In this document: positions 52,615 through 63,289 of the stretch, piece by piece
How positions within the stretch are numbered: the stretch's first letter is position 1
How the letters are laid out: every line of letters begins with the position of its first letter
Source of the DNA: Aquificaceae bacterium
GTDB lineage: Bacteria; Aquificota; Aquificia; Aquificales; Aquificaceae
Length of the DNA: 64,000 bases
Reading direction: 5' to 3'
Assembly: GCA_027079305.1 (NCBI GenBank)
Contig: JALWVU010000073.1
Span: forward strand, 1-64,000
Program-made: the position numbers and the translations under genes
Notes under the pieces: model-generated
The model's input: the letters and a program-made list of their open reading frames with translations, nothing else
Database searches by the model: none
What the model was told of the DNA's origin: nothing

Positions 52615-53802
52615 ATGATAAGGAAAGTTCTTTTCAAGGATCTTGATGTAAACGTTGTAAACCTTGGGAACATACTCGAGGAGGCAAGGAAGAGTAGTCT
52701 AACAGGATTTTTCAGAGTCACCTATTGGAACAGGGACGACTTCCTTATATTTGTGGACGGATACCCGGTAAAAGTCATAAGCGTTCATCCGGATGGCAGA
52801 AGGCTGGCGAGTCCGCCGGATGCTTTCAAGCTTGAAGAGAGGGAAGGAACCGCCACCTTAGTCGAGTGTTCTCTCGACGACTTGGTGGGATTCCAGGAGT
52901 ATCACCACGATCCGGGTAGGTCGGGAGCACTCTTCCTGTTTCCTCTGGGAGCAGTCGTTCAGGAGCCTACCTCTCTCAGTTTCCTTGATGTAAACAAAGA
53001 GTTCGTGCTCGCCCAGAAGAGCCACCTGAGCGGTTATATGGCTCTATACACAAGGGAAAAACTCATCGGAATGGTGATCTTTCAGGAAGGCAATCCAGTA
53101 GCGGTATTCGGCGGTAACTCCTCCTTTGGATCCCAGGCGATAGATTACATAAACGCCAACCTGGTTCTTACAAAGAGCTTCATGTCCATGTATACACTCG
53201 AGTATGAGATCCTCAGTTTCATGTATTCGATGCATTCGGACAACCTCAGGCTGGTAAACTCTACCTTCTCCGTCTTTCAGGAAGCAAAGGAGTTCATAGA
53301 ATCCGGGAAAAGGAACGCCCTTGTAGTTATAGAGGGAGGAGGAATATACAGATACGACTTTTTCTTCAGGGGACAGCAGATAGAGAGGCTGGTTAAGGAA
53401 AAGGGCTTTTTTGTAAACGATGAAGATCTTATAGGAAAGTTAGCGGTCAAGGTAGAGAACATGCCGGACAGAAACATAAAGGTTTACGAAATCGCCCTGA
53501 TAGAGAAGCCTCAACCTATAGAGATCAGAATAGAGGGAAGCGGTCAAGAGGTTTCCTCTGAAGGAGGCTATATACCGGCGGACAAGGTGGGGGAGATAAA
53601 AGCGCTATTTATAAAGGAGCTTGGACCTGTGGGCAAGCTGGTATGGAACAAGACCTTAGGGGATATGGGATTTAAAGAGGACACCATGGGACCCGCTCAG
53701 ATGAGGATGCTGATAGACAGACTCATGAAGGAATTTCCAGAAGAGGAGCTTGCCAATGAATTTACCGAAAAAATAAAGGAAATTCTGCCCGATATAATGT
53801 AG
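52615..53802 (+). CDS. DUF4388/PatA-N-like protein of an MglA-Roadblock cassette
   Basis: 395 residues, cytoplasmic. The N-terminal part (LGNILEEARKSSLTGFFRVTYWNRDDFLIFVDGYPVKVISV) resembles the DUF4388/PATAN domain seen in GTPase and two-component networks. A second such unit appears around LAQKSHLSGYMALYTREKLIGMVIFQEGNPVAVFGGN. The C-terminal 80 residues (ADKVGEIKALFIKELGPVGKLVWNKTLGDMG) form a separate helical domain. Followed after 12 nt by the Cache-HAMP receptor, then Roadblock and GTPase genes, it is probably a scaffold or adaptor in that pathway. Exact biochemical role unknown. Confidence 0.6.
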   Translation: MIRKVLFKDLDVNVVNLGNILEEARKSSLTGFFRVTYWNRDDFLIFVDGYPVKVISVHPDGRRLASPPDAFKLEEREGTATLVECSLDDLVGFQEYHHDPGRSGALFLFPLGAVVQEPTSLSFLDVNKEFVLAQKSHLSGYMALYTREKLIGMVIFQEGNPVAVFGGNSSFGSQAIDYINANLVLTKSFMSMYTLEYEILSFMYSMHSDNLRLVNSTFSVFQEAKEFIESGKRNALVVIEGGGIYRYDFFFRGQQIERLVKEKGFFVNDEDLIGKLAVKVENMPDRNIKVYEIALIEKPQPIEIRIEGSGQEVSSEGGYIPADKVGEIKALFIKELGPVGKLVWNKTLGDMGFKEDTMGPAQMRMLIDRLMKEFPEEELANEFTEKIKEILPDIM

Positions 53803-53814
53803 AGGAGGTTGCAG

Positions 53815-54930
53815 ATGGTAGGGAGGTATTTCAGAAACGCGTCCCTGATAGAGAAGTTTGTGATCCCCAACGTAATCATACTTGTGGTGCTGATAGTTGC
53901 CATAGGTGCCATAAGCTATGCACTCTTACAGCAACAGCTAAAAAAACAGGCCAAAGACAGCCTCAACAACGGATATAAGCTCTTTAATCAACTCGTTAAA
54001 GAGAGGGAGAGTTCGGGACTCGCCATAGCATACTTAGTTAGCTTAGATCCAGATGTTAAAAAGGCTCTTGCGAAAAGAGATAGGAAGCTCCTCTACAAGT
54101 ATGTGAAGGTCAGAGCTGATCTTGAAATGCTCACAGGTATATACGATTTAAGGCTCCACTTTCTCACACCCCTTGCGGTTTCTTTCTTCAGGACATGGAA
54201 CCCCGAGAGGTTCGGAATAGACGTATCCAAGTTCAGAAGGGTCATAGTCACCGTTGCCCAGAGGAGGACGCCTCAGAAGGGTATAGAGGTAGGACTGAAG
54301 AGAACAATAGTTACCGGAGCCTACCCAGTTCTTGACGGAAACGAGTATCTGGGAGCGGTAGAGCTGATAACACCCTTCAATCCTATACTTGATCAGCTCA
54401 AGGACCTGACGGGAATGGACACGGTAGTTCTTATAAACAGGAGGGCAGCCACCCACGCGGAGTGGGTCGCAAAGGCGGAAAGGATAGGAGATTTCTTCCT
54501 TTACTATGAGACTAACCCTGTTTTAAGAAACCTTATGCTCCAAGCTAAGGACAAACCCGAGACGGTTCTGATAGTCCAGAACTACGCGGTGATGGCCAAA
54601 CCCATATTCGATTTTTCCAGGAGGAACATAGGATACCTGATCCTCGGATACGACCTGACTCCGATAATAGACTCCTACAAAGAGCTTGGTATATACATAC
54701 TCATGTTCGTTTTCATAGGTCTCGTGATAAGCTTCTTTGTTTCATACATGATATTCAAGAAATACGTTGAGGAGCCTATAAACACGCTTATAGAGCATAC
54801 AGAAAGGATAAGCATGGGAGACGTGGACCAGAAGATACCTATACAATCGAAAGATGAAATAGGTAGGCTTGCGGAGGCTTTCGATAGAATGAGGATAAGC
54901 ATAAAGAAGGTTATGGACCTACTCAAGTGA
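53815..54930 (+). CDS. Cache-HAMP transmembrane receptor without output domain
   Basis: 371 residues: TM1 (about 15-38, VIPNVIILVVLIVAIGAISYALL), an extracytoplasmic region of about 240 residues with the double-Cache-type pattern (SGLAIAYLVSLDPDVKKAL, GAYPVLDGNEYLGAVELITPFNPILDQL), TM2 (about 287-310, YILMFVFIGLVISFFVSYMIF) and a HAMP domain (EPINTLIEHTERISMGDVDQKIP ... DEIGRLAEAFDRMRISI). The protein ends directly after HAMP: no kinase, MCP or cyclase domain. The start is ATG 53815 with GAGGAGG at proper spacing rather than the in-frame TTG. The output is presumably passed to the Roadblock/GTPase pair encoded next. Confidence 0.85.
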   Translation: MVGRYFRNASLIEKFVIPNVIILVVLIVAIGAISYALLQQQLKKQAKDSLNNGYKLFNQLVKERESSGLAIAYLVSLDPDVKKALAKRDRKLLYKYVKVRADLEMLTGIYDLRLHFLTPLAVSFFRTWNPERFGIDVSKFRRVIVTVAQRRTPQKGIEVGLKRTIVTGAYPVLDGNEYLGAVELITPFNPILDQLKDLTGMDTVVLINRRAATHAEWVAKAERIGDFFLYYETNPVLRNLMLQAKDKPETVLIVQNYAVMAKPIFDFSRRNIGYLILGYDLTPIIDSYKELGIYILMFVFIGLVISFFVSYMIFKKYVEEPINTLIEHTERISMGDVDQKIPIQSKDEIGRLAEAFDRMRISIKKVMDLLK

Positions 54931-54981
54931 GGCTTGATGAATATGGAAGGGAGAGTATCATTTATTTAGGAGGAGGGAAGT

Positions 54982-55473
54982 ATGGAACTCGACATTGTCC
55001 AATACGAAATAGACGAAGAGGTTGAAAAGGAAATCATCAATGCCCTTAAGAATTTTGTCGCCAGGACGGACGCGGACCTGGTTATACTTTCGGATGATGC
55101 GGGAAGGATAATCTCCTTCTACGGTAAGAACTTAGATGAAACGCAGGCGGAGTTCCTGGCGAGCATAATAAGCGGTATATTCGGGGCCGCCTTCGAAATG
55201 GCTAAGATGGTCTCCCAGGAAGATCTCCTCGATGCTATCCAGTATGAGAGTAAAAAGCAAAATGTGGTGGTCAAGGCGGTAGGCGACAGATTTTTAGTGG
55301 GCGTTCTCTGTCCGAAGAACGTAGCCCTTGGAACGGTCAGGCTGTTCCTGAAAGAGCTTGCGGAGGAGCTTAACAGGATATTCTCCTCGGTAAAACCCAA
55401 ACCCTCCAAGCTGATAAAGCTATCACCCGAGGCAGTTGAGGAGAAGCTCAACAAGATACTGGGGGCAACATGA
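54982..55473 (+). CDS. Roadblock/LC7-domain protein (MglB-like)
   Basis: 163 residues with a Roadblock fold: ALKNFVARTDADLVILSDDAGRIISFYGKNLDETQAEFLASIISGIFGAAFEMAKMV, a central strand NVVVKAVGDRFLVGVLCPKNVALGTVRLFLKELAEELNRIF and a charged C-terminal helix. MglB-type Roadblock proteins act as GTPase-activating partners of MglA. Its stop overlaps the GTPase start (ATGA), strong evidence for a paired complex. Confidence 0.88.
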   Translation: MELDIVQYEIDEEVEKEIINALKNFVARTDADLVILSDDAGRIISFYGKNLDETQAEFLASIISGIFGAAFEMAKMVSQEDLLDAIQYESKKQNVVVKAVGDRFLVGVLCPKNVALGTVRLFLKELAEELNRIFSSVKPKPSKLIKLSPEAVEEKLNKILGAT

Positions 55474-56033
55474 AGCTCAAGGTAGTGTACTTCGGGGCTT
55501 CCCTTGCAGGTAAAAGCACAAACGTTAAGGTTCTTTACGAGAAACTGAGCCAGAGAGGTATAACTAAGGGGGATTATATCTCCATGGAAACTGACGAAAA
55601 CAGAACGCTCTTTGTAGAGATGTTCCTGAGCTCTATAAACATAGACGGTGTGGATATAGATATAAAAGTTCTAACGACTCCAGGCCAGTTCAGACTGCAT
55701 CCCCTCAGAAAGGTGATAATGAAGGGTGTAGATGGCCTTGTCTTTGTAGTAGACAGCTCCAAAGAGAGGGAAAACATAAACTTCCTCGTTCTGAGGGAAA
55801 CCGCCGCGGTCCTGAAAGAACAGGGCTTTGACCTCTACTCACTCCCCGTTGTGGTCCAATACAACAAAAGAGACCTGCCGGATGCTCTCCCGATAGATGA
55901 ACTCCAGCCTGTCTGCAATCCTTGGGGAACAGAATACATCGAGGCTGTTGCTACGGAAGGCAAGGGTGTGGTGGAAACCTTTCAGGCCATAGTGAAAAAA
56001 ATACTCCTTGAGAAAGCCCTTGCTAAGAAGTGA
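55470..56033 (+). CDS. MglA-like small Ras-family GTPase
   Basis: 187 residues with G1 YFGASLAGKSTNVKVLYEKL, G3 TPGQFRLHPLRKVIMKGVDGLVFVVDSS (TPGQ as in MglA and Arf rather than DTAGQ), G4 QYNKRDLPDALP and a G5-like EAVATEGKGVVETF. Prokaryotic MglA GTPases set polarity or gate motility and type IV pili. The first gene context here, with its own transmembrane Cache-HAMP receptor, suggests the GTPase is the output switch of an environmental sensor. A hairpin terminator follows. Confidence 0.92.
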   Translation: MKLKVVYFGASLAGKSTNVKVLYEKLSQRGITKGDYISMETDENRTLFVEMFLSSINIDGVDIDIKVLTTPGQFRLHPLRKVIMKGVDGLVFVVDSSKERENINFLVLRETAAVLKEQGFDLYSLPVVVQYNKRDLPDALPIDELQPVCNPWGTEYIEAVATEGKGVVETFQAIVKKILLEKALAKK

Positions 56034-56099: not shown

Positions 56100-56260
56100 T
56101 ATGTCCTCACTTTCAACTCCACCCGGCACATTATATTCGCATTCTTAACACCATAATAAAGACCATCCAATCCGATTTCAACTCCACCCGGCACCGTTAA
56201 GGTATTTGCCATTATCAATGGTAAACTCATATCCAATCCGATTTCAACTCCACCCGGCAC
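56100..56260 (-). CRISPR. Three-repeat CRISPR array with one degenerate terminal repeat
   Basis: Two identical 30-nt repeats occupy 56165-56194 and 56231-56260. A third copy at 56100-56129 keeps only the 19 bases TTTCAACTCCACCCGGCAC (56111-56129) and diverges over its other 11. Spacers are 56130-56164 (35 nt) and 56195-56230 (36 nt). Read on the minus strand the repeat contains GGAGTTGAAA, like the GTTGAAA ends of many thermophile repeats, and the damaged copy is then the last, trailer-end one, so I infer leftward transcription from a leader right of 56261. The adjacent cas6 and cmr genes are the likely partners. Confidence 0.88.
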
Positions 56261-56539
56261 CCCAAACGAGCGGTTTAATAATATAAGCTACTTCAACAAC
56301 TTATACAACTCCCTGTATCCGCAAATGAAGTTAATTTCCGAAAACTGCCGGTCCTGCAAAAGACCTTAAAATTTGGCCCATTTAAAACCTTGTGTATCAA
56401 CCGGTCCAGAAAGGTGTCATCAAAGCATCAAGACATCAAGGCATTTTGATGCACTGTAAAACTCTCTTACCTATTCCCTTGCCAAGGAGCCGGCAGGCCC
56501 TTTCGTCCTGCTGTAAAATTTTATACCATAGATTCCGTG
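56261..56539. promoter_or_regulatory. Non-coding gap between CRISPR array and cas operon (leader and promoter region)
   Basis: This A/T-rich stretch, on present evidence, holds the leader of the leftward array and the promoter of the rightward calp-cas operon. Visible elements are a cluster of three CATCAA motifs (listed separately), a small inverted repeat GCAGG (56493-56497)/CCTGC (56507-56511), and a -10-like TATACC at 56522-56527, about 12 nt before the first gene. No gene is supported in it. Confidence 0.45.
56418..56452. repeat. Three CATCAA motifs at 8-nt period plus an inverted copy
   Basis: CATCAA begins at 56418, 56426 and 56434, an exact 8-nt spacing, and TTGATG follows at 56446-56451. 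GCATCAA (56425-56431) and TTGATGC (56446-56452) form a perfect inverted repeat. The block lies about 90-120 nt before the first gene of the calp-cas operon and about 160 nt from the array, where an operator or leader element would be expected. Confidence 0.5.
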
Positions 56540-56968
56540 ATGAGGGGGTTAAAAGAGATATACAGACAGATAATAGAGGAGCAGGAATACAAGTTTTTGG
56601 GGTTCTTTGATCATGAAAGTCTAAAGTTCCTTGAAGAGCTTCTTGATACCGATCTGGGTATAAGGGGGAGGAAAGAAGTCGGCAAAGAGCCGAGAAAGGG
56701 AAGGCCTTTCATAGGCAGGAAAAGGGGAAATTCCCTTGAGGTGTGTTTTCTTACAAAGGAAAAAAGAAAGTACAGGATTAGTCTTGATCCATGTGAGAAG
56801 AAAGATACCTCATGCTCATGGATGGAAAGTGTATCTTATGTCTTTTACGACAGGAAGAGGGGTTACGGGAGGTTTTTATTAAAGGATTTCGGAGAATTGA
56901 ATTATACCCTGTGCGGAAGGTGTGAGGATTTGGAAGTTATTGACAAACTTAGGGTCTTTGAAGTATGA
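56540..56968 (+). CDS. Unknown protein heading the calp-cas operon (142 aa)
   Basis: Not recognised. It is a charged, soluble protein: helical N-terminus (MRGLKEIYRQIIEEQEYKFLGFFDHESLKFLEELLDTDLG), a strongly basic linker (RGRKEVGKEPRKGRPFIGRKRG) and a beta-rich C-terminal half with five cysteines (VCFL, DPCEKK, TSCSW and LCGRC). Its stop overlaps the start of the sigma-factor gene (ATGA), so the two should be co-translated. Start ATG 56540 is taken over GTG 56537. It may be an accessory regulator of the sigma module, an effector, or a nucleic-acid-binding protein judged by the basic linker; none of these is shown. Confidence 0.75.
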   Translation: MRGLKEIYRQIIEEQEYKFLGFFDHESLKFLEELLDTDLGIRGRKEVGKEPRKGRPFIGRKRGNSLEVCFLTKEKRKYRISLDPCEKKDTSCSWMESVSYVFYDRKRGYGRFLLKDFGELNYTLCGRCEDLEVIDKLRVFEV

Positions 56969-57642
56969 AGGATGCGCTTATAGCTCTTGCTGAGGGCAGG
57001 GAAGACATACAATTTAGGACCTTCTTACTCAAAGAAATACAGTCTGTTATCCGTGAGAATGAATTAGAGGAGTTACTAAAAAGGCGCTTGGGGGATGATT
57101 ACGCTGAAGAGGTTCTTGCGGATTTCAGACTAAGGGTTTTCCTCATGGTGAGATCTGGCAAGCTGGAAGAGAAAGAGTTTATAAGCAGGTATTATGTGAG
57201 GAAGATGATTCGTTCATGTGCGATAGACATCCTGAACGGGGACTCCAAACTCAACTTTGTGAGCGTAGAAGGTCTCAACTACGAAAACGATGAAGGAGAC
57301 GTTGTGAGCTTTGAGGAAAATATAGCGGTAGAAGAGGATAAAGACCTGCAAATAAGCGCAGAAGATCTCTTTGATGAAATCGTGAGCAAGCTATCGGAAA
57401 AGGAAAGGAAGGTTATGTGCTACTACCTGTATAAAAGCCTATACTCAAAGGAGATCCCCTTAGAGGGCATTTCCAAAGCCAACCTCTATAAAATTTGGGA
57501 AAGACTAAGAAAGAAGATAGCCAGTGAAATCTCTTATATGCCCTCCGAGGAAGAGTTCAGGGAGTTTGCGGAAAGATTCTTGTCAGAAGTTTGCGGCAAG
57601 GAGGGTTATTCAATTAAGGAGCGTGGAAAAGATGGGAAGTAA
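56965..57642 (+). CDS. calpS: CalpS-like ECF-type sigma factor
   Basis: 225 residues. A region-2-like segment (about 40-92) reads GDDYAEEVLADFRLRVFLMVRSGK followed by SRYYVRKMIRSCAIDIL, matching the ECF pattern of acidic start, L/F-rich helix and a final A-I-D-x-L helix. A region-4-like segment (about 133-188) has DLFDEIVSKLSEKERKVMCYYLYK, KEI, then ISKANLYKIWERLRKKI, a helix-turn-helix. Followed by CalpT- and CalpL-like genes it matches the sigma factor released by the type III CRISPR protease system of Sulfurihydrogenibium. Divergence from standard ECF factors is high; the assignment draws on context as much as sequence. Confidence 0.8.
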   Translation: MKDALIALAEGREDIQFRTFLLKEIQSVIRENELEELLKRRLGDDYAEEVLADFRLRVFLMVRSGKLEEKEFISRYYVRKMIRSCAIDILNGDSKLNFVSVEGLNYENDEGDVVSFEENIAVEEDKDLQISAEDLFDEIVSKLSEKERKVMCYYLYKSLYSKEIPLEGISKANLYKIWERLRKKIASEISYMPSEEEFREFAERFLSEVCGKEGYSIKERGKDGK

Positions 57643-58423
57643 ACTGCAGGAGATCCTATACAGGAACTACGAAGAGAGCCTCGGAGAAGAACTTATAGAG
57701 GTTAAAGAAAAAGAAAGGAAACCCTCAAGAGAGGGGCAAGTAAGGCTCTTCTTCATGACACCTCCTGAGTTTGTTCTCGTTCTCAAAAAGGAGGGAGACT
57801 TAAACGTCATAGTTCCACTTACAAGTTACCTTCAGCTTGCTATCACAGATAAATATCCACCGCTCATAAAGTGGAGAGGTTTGAATTTGGTTCCTCTACC
57901 CTTCTGGGTTTACGTAAATGAAAAACTCCTCCAAAAATACTCGGTTCCCGTTTTCAAGATCAGAAAACTTGATCCAATAAGAGAATATGTCAAATCCGCA
58001 AGAACGAAAGGAATAGGTGAGTGGAGGGAGAAGTTCATCAGAAAAACCGCAGAGAGGTTTAGGGATCTGAACCTTTCCAGCATTATCTACGAAGTTGTGC
58101 GTGAAGAGGAAGGAAAATCAGGTGTAGTGGTCAAATTCCCGACCGCACTAAAAGAAGAGATAGAAAGGAGAAGAGAGCTTGCCCTCGCCGCACAACCTGC
58201 AAGCTATATGAGAGGGAGTAATTGGCTCGGTGTTGTGGAAGAAGATAAGTTGATACTTTACCTGCCCGAAGATTACCTTGGTAAAAAAGTAGCCATCTCC
58301 TTAGGTGATAAGGTCATATACGAAGGGGTAGGCAAACAAAAAATAATTATTGAGGATATTCCAAAAGTTTCCTCTTACACCTTCTTGGAGGAGGATCTAA
58401 ATGTTCAGGTTCTCGGCGATTGA
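57632..58423 (+). CDS. calpT: CalpT-like anti-sigma factor / CalpL substrate
   Basis: 263 residues. No strong family motif by eye; identified by position between sigma-like and Lon-SAVED genes, with the length of the known CalpT. The N-terminal domain (about 36-110: VRLFFMTPPEFVLVLKKEGDLNVIVPL, PPLIKWRGLNLVPLPFWVYV) is beta-rich, then a helical segment (about 112-183) and an Ala-rich stretch ELALAAQPASYM (about 182-193), followed by a small C-terminal beta domain (about 198-263). In the studied system CalpT holds the sigma factor until cut. The ATG at 57632 overlaps the sigma stop by 11 nt; the longer open frame upstream is in the sigma gene. Confidence 0.76.
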   Translation: MGSKLQEILYRNYEESLGEELIEVKEKERKPSREGQVRLFFMTPPEFVLVLKKEGDLNVIVPLTSYLQLAITDKYPPLIKWRGLNLVPLPFWVYVNEKLLQKYSVPVFKIRKLDPIREYVKSARTKGIGEWREKFIRKTAERFRDLNLSSIIYEVVREEEGKSGVVVKFPTALKEEIERRRELALAAQPASYMRGSNWLGVVEEDKLILYLPEDYLGKKVAISLGDKVIYEGVGKQKIIIEDIPKVSSYTFLEEDLNVQVLGD

Positions 58424-59867
58424 ACCGGAGCACTTTAAAGGTCTTCTCAGTAGCGGTAAACTGGATGAGGACTTGGACGAGATTTTTGAGCAGTTCTGGG
58501 AGCTGAGTTCTTTTAGTCAATTTGAGTTGATCAAATATGTAAAGGAAAAGGGTATCAATCCAAGCCTTGGTGTTCTTTCCTCGGTATTTGACATTTCAGA
58601 AGAGGAAGCCAAAAAATTTCTAAGAAACCCTTACAGGGAGTTTTACGTTCCCGTAGTTGGGCAAGAGAGTAAACTGGTAAGAGGTCTCTCTGTAAAGGAT
58701 CTTGATAGCATCATTACCAATCACGACCACCTTAAAAGCTCCATGGAGGTTATAAGGGACTTTCTCGGCAAAGGGTTTGCCCTCTTTTTTGATGAGGAGT
58801 TTAGCGGTGAAAGTTATATGCTTCCTGCGGTTGTCAGCTTATACGTTGAAAACCCACCTAAGGATGCGGTCTTTACAGGAAAGATAGACAAAGAAGGTAA
58901 CATCTATGAGGTGAACGGTATACCCAAAAAGAGGGCTTTGGCAAAAAAACACAACCTTAGACTGATTGAACCCTCATACCTTGACAATGTCCAAACCCTT
59001 AAAAACTGGCTTGATGCGGACAGATACGACGTTCCCCTTTTTATAACCAAAAGCAAAGAAAATTACGAAGGAGAACTGAAGAGCCTTTACTCTCACCTTA
59101 CCTTTGATAATCCGGAAAGGACTTTGGAACTCCTTGAGGTTCTAAACGGCATACCAAAAGAGAAACTTGTTATACCTACAGGTCAGATACCTCCAGAGGA
59201 ATCAGCATGGGAGAGCATAGTTAGAGAGTTCTATAAGAGAATCAAAGAGATAGAAAAGGCTTTGGGGGGAAGGGAAGTTTGGCATATGGCTATAAACGGG
59301 GCAAGTGCCCTCGCCTTTTCCTTGGGGGCGGTATTCGGAAGCCAGAAACCTTTTGTCTTTTATCATTTCCAGAATAAAGCTTACAAACCTATAAAGGTAG
59401 ATAATGTAAGGATCCTGAAGGAAAGACTTAAAGAATACAAGCACATAGACTACACCGTTGAGGGAGATGGTGACGAACTTGCAGTAGCCTTTGCCATAGC
59501 CCACCACGAGTTGCAGGCAAGCGTTAAAGAGTTCATGAAGGAAATAAACCCTACAATCCTTGTGATACGCTACAAAAAAGCAGGTCATGTGCCCGTTGAA
59601 GATATCTTTGAGGTGGCAAGAGAGAGTGCAAGCCTTATACAGGATATAAGGAGTAAAAGGGATTACAAGAGCTTTCACTTCTTCTTTTCCACACCTGTGG
59701 CTATCGCCTTTATGGTAGGTGTAGCTTTCGGATACTACAACCAAGGCTATGTCTACAACCTCCAAAGGGGGCAAGGTGAAAGCTACGTAAGGGTAATAAG
59801 CTTTGAAACTATAAGAAAAATCAGAGAGGAAGGGGATGAGGTTTCTGCTGAAGCTCAGAAACGTTGA
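58401..59867 (+). CDS. calpL: CalpL-like Lon-SAVED protease, cyclic-nucleotide activated
   Basis: 488 residues. The Lon-type protease part (about 75-205) contains EEFSGESYMLPAVVSLYVENP, with Ser138 as candidate nucleophile, and AVFTGKIDKEGNIYEVNGIPKKRALAKKHNLRLIEP, with Lys176 or Lys177 as the dyad lysine; this parallels the Lon order S...TGEI...GG-x-K. The C-terminal SAVED domain (about 290-470) shows WHMAINGASALAFSLGAVFG, ELAVAFAIAHHEL, ILVIRYKKAG and FFFSTPVAIAFMVGVAFGYYNQG. No AAA+ ATPase domain and no clear N-terminal transmembrane helix are present. Predicted to sense cyclic oligoadenylate (cA4 in the relative) and then cut the CalpT-like protein. Overlaps both neighbours (23 and 32 nt). 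Confidence 0.88.
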   Translation: MFRFSAIEPEHFKGLLSSGKLDEDLDEIFEQFWELSSFSQFELIKYVKEKGINPSLGVLSSVFDISEEEAKKFLRNPYREFYVPVVGQESKLVRGLSVKDLDSIITNHDHLKSSMEVIRDFLGKGFALFFDEEFSGESYMLPAVVSLYVENPPKDAVFTGKIDKEGNIYEVNGIPKKRALAKKHNLRLIEPSYLDNVQTLKNWLDADRYDVPLFITKSKENYEGELKSLYSHLTFDNPERTLELLEVLNGIPKEKLVIPTGQIPPEESAWESIVREFYKRIKEIEKALGGREVWHMAINGASALAFSLGAVFGSQKPFVFYHFQNKAYKPIKVDNVRILKERLKEYKHIDYTVEGDGDELAVAFAIAHHELQASVKEFMKEINPTILVIRYKKAGHVPVEDIFEVARESASLIQDIRSKRDYKSFHFFFSTPVAIAFMVGVAFGYYNQGYVYNLQRGQGESYVRVISFETIRKIREEGDEVSAEAQKR

Positions 59868-60552
59868 CGGCTCGCATGTTAGAGTAGGGATAGACTACAG
59901 GAGAAGATTTATATCTCTTCTAAAGAGAATATTAAGAGAGGAATACGAAAAAAAGAGGACAAGACCTTACGCCTTTGCGGTTTACTTCGGCAGGGAGGCT
60001 AAGATAGGAAAGGATTTCGTGGAAGGTGTGAGAAATATAAACTTCAGATTCTCAACGGGAGACAGCCTTTTGGCAGTTAAGTTCTACAACGGGGCGCTAA
60101 CCTTAAAAAAGCAAAGAGCTTCCCACAGCATAGGTGAGGGGAAATTTATTGTGGGATGGATAAAACAGGAAAGGGAAAAGGAACTTACGGGGGTGTTCAA
60201 AACTCTATCACCTGTAATTGTAGAGCGTATAGGTTTTTCTTCCCGAAAGCCCACGGATAGGTATGTAATCCCTTCCGAAGAGGGGTTTGAGGAGTCCATG
60301 CTTGAAAATATTTTAAGGAGATACAGGAACGTGAAGGGGAAGGACTTAAAAGTAAAAAAGTTCGCTTTTGAAGGTCTAAAAATAAAGGAAGAGTTCATTA
60401 AACACTACGGCGGGTATCTGAGGGGATTTATAGGAAAGTTCAAAATAGTGTCAGATTCCGAGGAACTACTGCGTTTTATATATCAGTATGGTCTCGGTCT
60501 CAGGACCGGCCAAGGCTTCGGATATCTGGAGGTGGAGGATGGAGAAGCTTGA
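59836..60552 (+). CDS. cas6: CRISPR-associated endoribonuclease Cas6
   Basis: 238 residues of two ferredoxin-like folds. The C-terminal glycine-rich loop LGLRTGQGFGYLEVE is the diagnostic Cas6 motif. N-terminal MRFLLKLRNVDGSHVRVGIDYRRRFISLLKRIL fits the family start. Cas6 cuts the pre-crRNA in the repeats. The catalytic residue (often His or Lys) cannot be fixed by eye; H117-like SHSIGEGKF near the middle is a candidate region. The start overlaps the protease gene by 32 nt and its end overlaps cmr1 by 14 nt. Confidence 0.88.
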   Translation: MRFLLKLRNVDGSHVRVGIDYRRRFISLLKRILREEYEKKRTRPYAFAVYFGREAKIGKDFVEGVRNINFRFSTGDSLLAVKFYNGALTLKKQRASHSIGEGKFIVGWIKQEREKELTGVFKTLSPVIVERIGFSSRKPTDRYVIPSEEGFEESMLENILRRYRNVKGKDLKVKKFAFEGLKIKEEFIKHYGGYLRGFIGKFKIVSDSEELLRFIYQYGLGLRTGQGFGYLEVEDGEA

Positions 60553-61540
60553 GTATGAGATTGAGTTTATAACACCTGCGTTTATCGGAGGAGCGGATCA
60601 GCAGGCGGAACTGAGACCCGCAAGTTTTGTAGGACTGCTGAGGTGGTGGTGGAGGGCTTTAAAGGGATGGAGGAAACCAGAAGACTTGTTAAATGAGGAA
60701 AGTGAAATATTCGGAGGTGCGGGGGACAAGGGAAAGGCGGGTAAGGTTTGGTTAAAAATAAAAGATAAAGATATCGAAGTTGGCAAAGATATAAAGGGAG
60801 AAAACGGTCTTGAGTGGGGATATAACAAGCGTCTTGGTAGGCTTGATGGTAAGCACGCAGGAATAGGATATTTGTTCTTCTCGGTGTTACTTCAAAGGAG
60901 GGACTATTTAAAACCTGAAGGTAGGTTTGTGCTTGAGCTTGTAGGTAAAAAAGAATATCTTGCGTATGCAACAGCAAGCCTCTGGGCTTTGTCAATCTTC
61001 GGTGGCGTAGGTACGAGGGCGAGGAGAGGTGGCGGAAATATCCGAGTTGTAAACTCTCAAGAAAGTTTTATGGATATGGTTCCTAAAGAACCTTTCTCCG
61101 ATTGGTTAAGGTCTCAGTATGAAAAAGCGCTAAGCTTGGTTCAAGGAAAGGGTTTGATAAAAAGCGTATATGTCAGCAAGCGAGCGTTTAACAACTGGGT
61201 GGAAGCTCTAAACGACATAGGAAAAGCCTTTATGGAGTATAGAACCAACAATAAGCACCGCATATTTGATATGGGAGCTTTCGGACTTCCCATAAGACAC
61301 AGGGGAAACATTTTTCTAACACCTCAAAATCACAATAGGAGAGCTTCACCTCTAATATTCAGGACTATAAGGGTAAGAAATAGATACAGATGGATGGTCG
61401 TTTGGTTAGACGGACCATTTTTGCCCAGAGGTGAGAAGCTGAGATTTAAAAGAAAGCTGGGTAACGTAAACCTAAAACCTATAGAAGAATTCTTGAGCAC
61501 TTTGGATGCTCAGAAAATTGCCTTTAATCAAGGAGGTTAA
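60539..61540 (+). CDS. cmr1: Type III-B RAMP protein Cmr1
   Basis: 333 residues. The N-terminal EYEIEFITPAFIGGADQQAELRPASFVGLLRWWWRALKGW is the Cmr1 hallmark (LRWWWR). GYLFFSVLLQRRDYLKPEGRFVLELVG, ASLWALSIFGGVGTRARRGGGNIRV is the glycine-rich RAMP loop of the family. Cmr1 caps the 3' side of the Cmr effector and contacts target RNA. The ATG at 60539 is chosen because it starts the conserved region and lies inside the end of cas6. Confidence 0.94.
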   Translation: MEKLEYEIEFITPAFIGGADQQAELRPASFVGLLRWWWRALKGWRKPEDLLNEESEIFGGAGDKGKAGKVWLKIKDKDIEVGKDIKGENGLEWGYNKRLGRLDGKHAGIGYLFFSVLLQRRDYLKPEGRFVLELVGKKEYLAYATASLWALSIFGGVGTRARRGGGNIRVVNSQESFMDMVPKEPFSDWLRSQYEKALSLVQGKGLIKSVYVSKRAFNNWVEALNDIGKAFMEYRTNNKHRIFDMGAFGLPIRHRGNIFLTPQNHNRRASPLIFRTIRVRNRYRWMVVWLDGPFLPRGEKLRFKRKLGNVNLKPIEEFLSTLDAQKIAFNQGG

Positions 61541-61543
61541 TCT

Positions 61544-63289
61544 ATGAACCTGCTAATTTTCACCTTCTCACCTGTTCAGGGGTTCATACAAAAATCAAGG
61601 AAACTCAGAGATCTCTTTAGTTCAAGCTATATGCTCTCATACATAACTCAGGAGCTTGTTAAGTATGCAGAGAACCTCGGAGCTTCAATAATATATCCAG
61701 TGATTTCCGAAGATTCCTCAGACAAACTTACCGCCAACTATCCCAACAGGTTCGTAGCTAAGGTAGAAAAAGATATATGCGGTGAGTTGGCAAAGAGGTT
61801 TGAGGAAATCTGGGAAGAAATATATACCTTTGTAGCGAACGAGCTCGGTCTCGAAGGGAAACTAAGGGAGCAGTTTTTCCTTCATACAAAACACTACTTC
61901 AAACACTTTTGCCACGCTCAGCCTTTGGGTGAGGATTACGGAGAAATTTACGACCTTGCAGAGAGGTATCTTGGGGCTAAGAAGAGCTTTAGACCGTATT
62001 ACGGACTTGAGGATGGCTATAGGTATACTTCCGAGGACGGAGAAGAGAAATATCCTAACGGCTGTTATCTGTGCGGTGAGCTTCCCGCTCTGGCGGTGGA
62101 TTGGAAGGAGTTTCTGAAAAAGCTTCCGAAGAAATACAGATATGCCCTTGGAGATAAACCTCTTTGTGGTGTCTGCACTACCAAAAAGATGTTTCCTTTT
62201 TATCTTAAGAAAGCTAAAAAGTATAAGGTTCCGACCTTTCCCAGCACGAAGGACCTCGCTTGGGCAAATCTTAAGGAGAATCTAAAAGGTGCTCCTAACG
62301 CGGGTGAGATCCTTTATTTAGTAAACACTATAGAGGAAAACTTTGATAGGGAAGACATAAGAGAAATAAACGCAGACTTTCTTGATCCTGAAGATGTAAA
62401 GGATATGAAGAAAGAGACAAATCTGGAGGACAAAGAATTTTTTGAAAAACTCCTAATAGAGCTGGAAAAGCTTTACGAAGATTTTGGTTTCAAAAAGCCC
62501 AAAAATTCCTATTTCGCCATCCTCATGGCGGACGGGGACAATATGGGAAAGTGGCTCGGTAAAGACGACTCTTTGAGAGGTATGAAGTTAACAGAGAAAT
62601 TCCACAGTGAATTTTCGCAGGCGGTTTCAAGCTTTGCCAAAAATGTAAAGGAATACGAAGATAACCTGTGGCTCAGCGTAGTTTATGCGGGTGGGGACGA
62701 TGTGCTTGCGGTTATGCATCCTTCAAAGGCTCTGGGGTTTGCGGACTCTATAAGGAGGAAATACAGTGAGTTTATAACGAGCAAAATCAAAGGTCTTGCA
62801 AGCGAACCTACCATGAGTGCAGGAATCGTGATAGCCCACGAGAAGGAGAACTTAACTTTTGTCCTTGATGAAGTTAGGAAAGCGGAAAAGCTCGCAAAAG
62901 ATAGTGGTAGGAACAGGGTATGCATAAGTGTCATTAAAAGATCGGGTGCTCCGAGGTCTGTGGTCTTGAAATGGAACGAACTTGAAATTGTAAATAGACT
63001 TGTGGAGCTTTTCCCTAAAGAAAAACTTTCCTCTACTCTCGCCTACGCCTTGGGACAAGAGCTTGAAGGTTTGGACCGCAGTGAGGAGCTATTTTTTCCG
63101 GTTGTAGCGGTTATCAGGAGAACGATCCGCAGGAAGAGCACGCTTTCGGAAGGGGAACTAAAGGATCTTATGGATTTGATTGAGCGCTTTATATCTCAAA
63201 GGGATGATTTCGGAGATCTGCTAAACATCCTTTATATAGCCCGCTTCCTGAGTCAGAGGGAGGAAACAAATGAAACTGTATCTGCTTGA
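61544..63289 (+). CDS. cmr2: Cas10/Cmr2 cyclic-oligoadenylate synthase lacking the HD domain
   Basis: 581 residues. It begins directly with the first Palm-like domain (LLIFTFSPVQGFIQKSRKLRDLFSSSYM), so the N-terminal HD nuclease of typical Cas10 is absent. A zinc site is formed by CYLC (174-177) and CGVC (208-211). The second Palm has YFAILMADGDNMGKWLG and the intact catalytic GGDD at residues 383-386 (VVYAGGDDVLAVM). Prediction: no DNase but active synthesis of cyclic oligoadenylate when target RNA is bound, supplying the signal for the Lon-SAVED protease. Confidence 0.95.
   Translation: MNLLIFTFSPVQGFIQKSRKLRDLFSSSYMLSYITQELVKYAENLGASIIYPVISEDSSDKLTANYPNRFVAKVEKDICGELAKRFEEIWEEIYTFVANELGLEGKLREQFFLHTKHYFKHFCHAQPLGEDYGEIYDLAERYLGAKKSFRPYYGLEDGYRYTSEDGEEKYPNGCYLCGELPALAVDWKEFLKKLPKKYRYALGDKPLCGVCTTKKMFPFYLKKAKKYKVPTFPSTKDLAWANLKENLKGAPNAGEILYLVNTIEENFDREDIREINADFLDPEDVKDMKKETNLEDKEFFEKLLIELEKLYEDFGFKKPKNSYFAILMADGDNMGKWLGKDDSLRGMKLTEKFHSEFSQAVSSFAKNVKEYEDNLWLSVVYAGGDDVLAVMHPSKALGFADSIRRKYSEFITSKIKGLASEPTMSAGIVIAHEKENLTFVLDEVRKAEKLAKDSGRNRVCISVIKRSGAPRSVVLKWNELEIVNRLVELFPKEKLSSTLAYALGQELEGLDRSEELFFPVVAVIRRTIRRKSTLSEGELKDLMDLIERFISQRDDFGDLLNILYIARFLSQREETNETVSA

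Follow-up and report, generated by a model that had tools for sequence, protein, structure and literature searches.

Transmembrane receptors with a HAMP domain are normally understood through the kinases, cyclases or chemotaxis modules fused to them. What does such a receptor act on when its chain stops at HAMP? To our knowledge, the output of receptors of this kind is generally unclear, and the upstream inputs of bacterial Ras-like GTPases are mostly unknown outside Myxococcus and the actinobacterial conservons. Both questions are raised by a four-gene operon in the 64,000-nucleotide stretch analysed here (the window), which comes from a heat-loving bacterium with an Aquificota genome of 2.01 Mb. 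The operon encodes a cytoplasmic protein (gene1), a receptor that ends at HAMP, a Roadblock protein and an MglA-type GTPase. On balance, we lean towards the view that HAMP-ended receptors signal in trans, via adaptors carrying a domain termed A5, to Roadblock/Ras-like GTPase modules. "A5" is our own label, given after alignment, for the C-terminal four-helix domain of gene1. The four open reading frames are intact, all on the plus strand, and lie where a preliminary description of the window had placed them (52615–56033):

52615–53802, plus strand: gene1, open reading frame of 395 residues; cytoplasmic, three tandem alpha/beta units and a C-terminal four-helix domain.
53578–53784, plus strand: A5 domain of gene1, residues 322–390; four helices, motif GPVGKxxWxK...EIPEE.
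53803–53808, plus strand: ribosome-binding site of the receptor gene, AGGAGG, from the sequence.
53815–54930, plus strand: receptor gene, 371 residues; first transmembrane helix, extracytoplasmic dCache_3, second transmembrane helix, HAMP, stop (Pfam, hydropathy).
53944–54660, plus strand: dCache_3 sensor domain (PF14827).
54775–54906, plus strand: HAMP domain of the receptor (PF00672).
54853–54927, plus strand: conserved last 25 residues of the receptor, DEIGRLAEAFDRMRISIKKVMDLLK; common to receptors with other sensor domains.
54982–55473, plus strand: Roadblock/MglB homologue with a C-terminal extension, 163 residues (PF03259; match to Myxococcus xanthus MglB).
55470–56033, plus strand: MglA-type Ras-like GTPase, 187 residues; G1 GASLAGKS, Arg in ENRTLF, G3 TTPGQ, G4 NKRD.

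The gap between gene1 and the receptor gene is 12 bp and that between the receptor and Roadblock genes is 51 bp. The start of the receptor appears better placed at ATG 53815, behind the AGGAGG, than at TTG 53809.

The receptor matched dCache_3 (4.1e-23) and HAMP (1.9e-12) in Pfam. The HAMP match ends at residue 364 of 371, and the stop follows 7 residues later. Hydrophobic helices lie around residues 11–40 and 287–318. Two transmembrane helices, an extracytoplasmic sensor, HAMP and then a stop are the marks of a HAMP-ended transmembrane receptor. By residue count, the protein contains no cysteine. The best PDB relative of its HAMP domain is Af1503 of Archaeoglobus (PDB 2l7h, 1.2e-8). It could be argued that the protein is a broken histidine kinase or chemoreceptor whose output was lost by frameshift or truncation; the missing domain, and nothing further, would suggest this. 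However, the same terminal ...IKKVMDLLK/R residue is the stop in all 13 relatives with a readable receptor end, and a c-haem paralogue has the same stop and tail. No output domain is encoded in any reading frame of the 51-bp gap before the Roadblock gene, and the frameshift after 54930 that the preliminary description had named as a finding that would refute it is absent. Among 10 receptor orthologues, the mean pairwise identity was 91% for HAMP plus tail and 94% for the last 25 residues, compared with 70% for the sensor domain. The stub is thus the best-conserved part of the receptor, which decay of a kinase would not leave. The missing output domain is genuine. The shared stop and the empty gap rule out a frameshifted or truncated kinase, and we give a broken receptor next to no credence.

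The sensor part is exchangeable. The second, downstream receptor found in relatives carries a Tll0287-like c-haem sensor (3e-29, CxxCH), then HAMP and the same tail and stop, indicating that dCache_3 and c-haem Cache alternate beside homologous gene1 proteins. HAMP and tail are kept while the sensor is dCache_3, c-haem Cache or none. The Tll0287-like domain is a c-haem Cache, and one HAMP-bearing member binds nitric oxide (PMC12889525).

Gene1 had been described as a DUF4388-like protein upstream of the receptor. Its position was borne out; the family assignment is weakly supported by sequence comparison. Gene1 itself did not match PF14332 (DUF4388), two of 15 relatives did (best E 0.007), and hhalign against true DUF4388 proteins aligned residues 11–55 in register at an E of 0.046 and a probability of 1.1. 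No model in Pfam or NCBIfam matched gene1 above cut-off, and a profile search of the PDB returned no relative. The AlphaFold2 model (25-sequence alignment; mean predicted local distance difference test score (pLDDT) 90.3, predicted TM-score 0.74) consists of three alpha/beta units, a poorly ordered linker at residues 310–317 and the four A5 helices (residues 322–336, 339–351, 360–371 and 377–390). Sliding clamps, suggested as the fold by Foldseek against the PDB and viral structures, were rejected as an artefact of the repeat pattern (TM-score about 0.1, root-mean-square deviation near 19). A5 is a separable domain and occurs without the rest of gene1 in other proteins.

The linkage of the four genes, examined in relatives, is conserved, strongly so in the Aquificaceae; the lack of linkage that would have refuted the preliminary description was thus not observed. 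The order gene1-receptor-Roadblock-mglA recurs in all relatives' loci that are long enough to show it, and other genera have the order Roadblock-mglA-gene1-receptor. Three close relatives (L005, L006 and L008) combine the two arrangements, with a gene1-receptor pair on either side of the GTPase pair. Within the Aquificaceae, each mglA orthologue lies beside a gene1 homologue or runs into a contig end, and the presence of the mglA orthologue agrees with that of A5 except for cases at contig ends. We surveyed 136 Aquificota genomes with profiles for the HAMP tail and A5, counting as pairs matches that lay no more than 3 kb apart on one strand. The HAMP-tail profile gave 120 matches at E <= ~1e-16, none of them in an open frame longer than 384 residues; we placed this cut, between 1.1e-16 and 3.1e-16, by frame length once the list had been seen. 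A5 was present near 100 of the 120 HAMP tails, and a HAMP tail near 87 of 100 A5 matches. Both elements occurred in 77 genomes; 7 had only one of them and 52 had neither. The two genes stand in one order in 47 pairs and in the other in 40, and a single inherited layout therefore does not explain the pairing. An unbiased Pfam search of the window's genome found seven HAMP domains over the cut-off. Three of them are protein-terminal, the stop coming 51–56 residues after the start of HAMP, and all of these lie next to the only two A5 proteins that the genome has.

These counts also bear on the possibility that HAMP contacts bring the receptor together in trans with chemoreceptors or histidine kinases, the GTPase linkage being incidental. 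The genome does have HAMP proteins with long frames, as this would require. However, the linkage of gene1, Roadblock and mglA is kept across genera, and its conserved neighbours include neither a kinase nor a chemotaxis gene, in agreement with the preliminary description, which had noted the absence of such an output. In addition, A5 was found near none of the 28 weaker HAMPs among the matches listed, mostly in long, kinase- or chemoreceptor-sized frames. We regard this explanation as very improbable.

The pairing of HAMP tail and A5 extends beyond gene1. In a Hydrogenothermaceae-like operon, a minimal transmembrane HAMP protein of about 130 residues, whose chain stops at HAMP, is encoded with an A5 protein, a Roadblock protein, a DUF4388 protein and a second, distant Ras-like GTPase. 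The minimal HAMP-ended proteins have 122–137 residues and no sensor domain. The A5 protein of this operon had no Pfam match; its model has an N-terminal Roadblock fold (Foldseek against MglB, TM-score up to 0.79, probability 1.00) and a long disordered linker (pLDDT <50) before the A5 helices. Its C-terminus aligned with the A5 domain of gene1 with an hhalign probability of 98.9 and an E of 3.7e-17. Two different GTPase modules thus have the HAMP-tail/A5 pair as a neighbour. A third family encodes A5 behind a true DUF4388 domain (1.6e-13); a c-haem Cache-HAMP receptor is encoded next to this protein, and no GTPase gene is adjacent. The sister operon appears, from sequence, to be split in two in the window's own genome. 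Contig C75 encodes a GTPase, a DUF4388 protein and a Roadblock protein, which share 72, 47 and 58% identity with their counterparts in the sister-family operon. Contig C1 (~34.2–35.7 kb; L077:5235-6666) carries two tandem minimal transmembrane HAMP proteins of 125 and 127 residues, whose genes overlap an A5-protein gene next to a PilB-like ATPase gene. Such a split would explain why an A5-HAMP pair can stand with no GTPase gene next to it.

The preliminary description had HAMP acting on the Roadblock/DUF4388-like proteins. The recurrent partner is the A5 part of gene1, and A5 is the candidate contact because it is linked to HAMP tails in three settings and fused to a Roadblock fold or to DUF4388. 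Alternatively, the HAMP end might act on the Roadblock protein or MglA without an intermediary, and gene1 might be an effector or scaffold in its own right. This would fit the adjoining receptor and Roadblock genes and the high conservation of HAMP tail, Roadblock and MglA beside a variable gene1. It fits less well with the HAMP-ended proteins that have A5 and no adjacent Roadblock or GTPase gene, on contig C1 and in the Desulfurobacteriaceae-like family. The HAMP end is more likely to contact gene1 than the Roadblock protein, given that A5 also accompanies HAMP-ended receptors away from any GTPase gene; direct action seems to us quite unlikely.

Several points weigh against signalling through A5. 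The A5 domain of gene1 evolves fast (47% mean identity), compared with about 90% for the HAMP tail, Roadblock and MglA, and it is for this contrast between a fast-evolving gene1 and a nearly fixed tail that direct contact is kept as a rival. The HAMP-tail profile was built from A5-linked members. The surveyed genomes are related to each other, so that the Fisher value for co-occurrence (4e-29) is not a true probability. The 20 HAMP tails without a nearby A5 include some at contig ends and others beside unrelated genes, and the receptor-A5 pair of Desulfurobacteriaceae-like genomes has no neighbouring GTPase gene. More tentatively still, and a little short of an even chance in our judgement, A5 may define an undescribed class of HAMP output, in which a four-helix adaptor domain takes up the signal of HAMP-ended receptors in trans and links interchangeable sensors (dCache_3, c-haem Cache or none) to Roadblock/Ras-like GTPase modules, twice in parallel in Aquificota with two GTPase families.

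Four loci (L121, L122, L123 and L129) encode HAMP-ended proteins of about 150 residues without A5 nearby and are real exceptions to the pairing. They lie beside a large reductase-like gene (by eye, probably nitrite/sulfite reductase-like) and the gene of a small CxxCH protein, which may be a further context linked to haem or redox chemistry.

At the output end of the operon, the Roadblock and MglA-type GTPase genes overlap by ATGA (55470–55473) as previously described, and Pfam (Robl_LC7, 3.8e-8; Ras, 1.4e-10) and PDB relatives agree with their naming. The best PDB relatives of the GTPase are the MglA proteins of T. thermophilus (2.6e-38) and M. xanthus (1.4e-37), and that of the Roadblock protein is M. 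xanthus MglB (2.5e-10). The Arg in ENRTLF, next to the conserved Thr of G2 (the intrinsic finger), aligns with MglA. G3 is TTPGQ throughout the orthologues, with Thr, Pro, Gly and Gln kept and the Val of Group 1 TVPGQ replaced by Thr; in Groups 2–5 it is GTPGQ (PMC4316618). The motifs are kept in full-length orthologues, and the G2 Arg motif was not found in one divergent sequence (L072). The GTPase gene is coupled to an MglB/Roadblock gene, as in Group 1 MglA. Because GASLAGKS, the intrinsic-finger Arg, TTPGQ and NKRD are kept, the sequence criteria of PMC4316618 place the predicted GTPase with Group 1, T for V in TVPGQ aside. A plasmid search for mglA relatives gave one match, in Deinococcus.

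Other GTPase loci were seen in passing. The mglA orthologue of genome G001 (L073:5997-6565) is in two frames, split at ~6.4 kb, by a frameshift or a sequencing error. A further Ras-like GTPase locus with a Roadblock gene lies beside an aminopeptidase M17 gene (L030:8455-9384). In the same genome, a Ras-like GTPase is encoded between a LapA/TPR protein and a 471-residue protein with a DUF4388 match (L029:8057-11186).

The locus would encode a membrane signalling chain that runs one way. The receptor, as a homodimer, would use dCache_3 to sense a ligand on the outer side of the inner membrane, and the change would pass through the second transmembrane helix to the HAMP dimer at the receptor's end. 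In place of a fused kinase, this end would act in trans on gene1, probably via A5. Gene1 may then tune the Roadblock (MglB-type) protein or hold it at the membrane, and would in this way set the GTP/GDP state or the position of the GTPase. The GTPase in turn would probably act on surface machines such as type IV pili. We infer the physical contact, the direction of control, the GTPase output and the ligand. Type IV pili are a plausible target by analogy with Myxococcus work, and the genome encodes two PilT-family ATPases over the cut-off. Alternatively, the receptor may be mainly a membrane anchor that brings gene1, Roadblock and MglA to a particular place on the membrane or to a pole, the ligand mattering little. 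MglA/MglB systems do act by localisation (M. xanthus literature, e.g. PMC2907295). Proteins consisting of little beyond a HAMP end, with no sensor at all, would suit an anchor. However, the receptors of the window and of many relatives retain a complete sensor (Pfam E 1e-23 to 1e-30), sensor domains are exchanged, and HAMP is a known relay domain. The keeping and exchange of sensors suggest that sensing matters, and we consider a mere anchor unlikely.

The nearest known systems in logic to this proposed chain are the actinobacterial conservons (CvnA-D, with Group 2 MglA; PMC4316618, PMC13343842). A module of histidine kinase type, with an LPxR tail, is retained in CvnA, whereas the window's receptor ends 7 residues after HAMP. 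The third conservon protein is CvnC; here it is gene1. The conservon GTPase belongs to Group 2 (GTPGQ; G4 NxFD), whereas the present one has TTPGQ and NKRD, is Group 1-like and carries the Arg in G2. The Group 1 MglA/MglB polarity module of M. xanthus and T. thermophilus is an adjacent, homologous GTPase/Roadblock pair whose Arg finger position is kept here. As a further parallel, the window's genome encodes PilT ATPases, which nothing ties to the operon. The Myxococcus inputs (Frz, RomR and others) are encoded elsewhere (PMC4316618), whereas here the receptor and gene1 lie within the operon.

PATAN/DUF4388 genes occasionally neighbour Group 1 and 5 MglA genes (PMC4316618, citing Makarova 2006). 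The gene1 units share the beta-alpha-beta-beta-beta order and the G-x-nG motif of that family; the sequence relation is marginal, and gene1 has three units plus A5. Af1503, the prototype HAMP structure (PMC3585426), likewise spans the membrane and has HAMP but no output domain. In the literature examined we found no GTPase or adaptor tied to it, and no GTPase tied to other output-less HAMP proteins. Among sCache_heme (Tll0287/DUF3365) receptors (PMC12889525), the reported nitric oxide-binding protein of P. azotoformans has two transmembrane helices and ends at HAMP. The relatives' downstream receptor has this sensor and also ends at HAMP, whereas the window's own receptor has dCache_3 without cysteine; PMC12889525 does not mention a GTPase. 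Searches of open-access papers for HAMP with Roadblock, MglA, PATAN or small GTPases turned up no account of the present pairing; subscription papers lay outside these searches. Receptor-GTPase operons are thus known in principle from the conservons, and the undescribed part is the candidate HAMP output domain.

With a partner domain that recurs across the phylum, the question of what HAMP-ended receptors act on gains a testable answer. Such a domain would also connect an outside signal directly to a bacterial Ras-like GTPase and suggests that surface sensors may be wired straight to small GTPases. Structural and biochemical work should be practical because all the proteins come from thermophiles.

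Downstream of mglA, the window holds a short CRISPR-like (clustered regularly interspaced short palindromic repeats) array at 56100–56261, with three 31-nucleotide repeats (TTTCAACTCCACCCGGCAC core) spaced 65–66 bp. At this position, relatives have the second gene1-receptor pair or a leuA/citramalate-synthase-like gene. Further on, positions 56965–63289 hold a type III CRISPR cassette encoding a helix-turn-helix protein, a CRISPR-T-like protein, a SAVED-Lon protease (7e-144), Cas6, a Cmr1-like protein and Cas10, which we take to resemble the CalpS/CalpT/CalpL sigma-factor signalling set.

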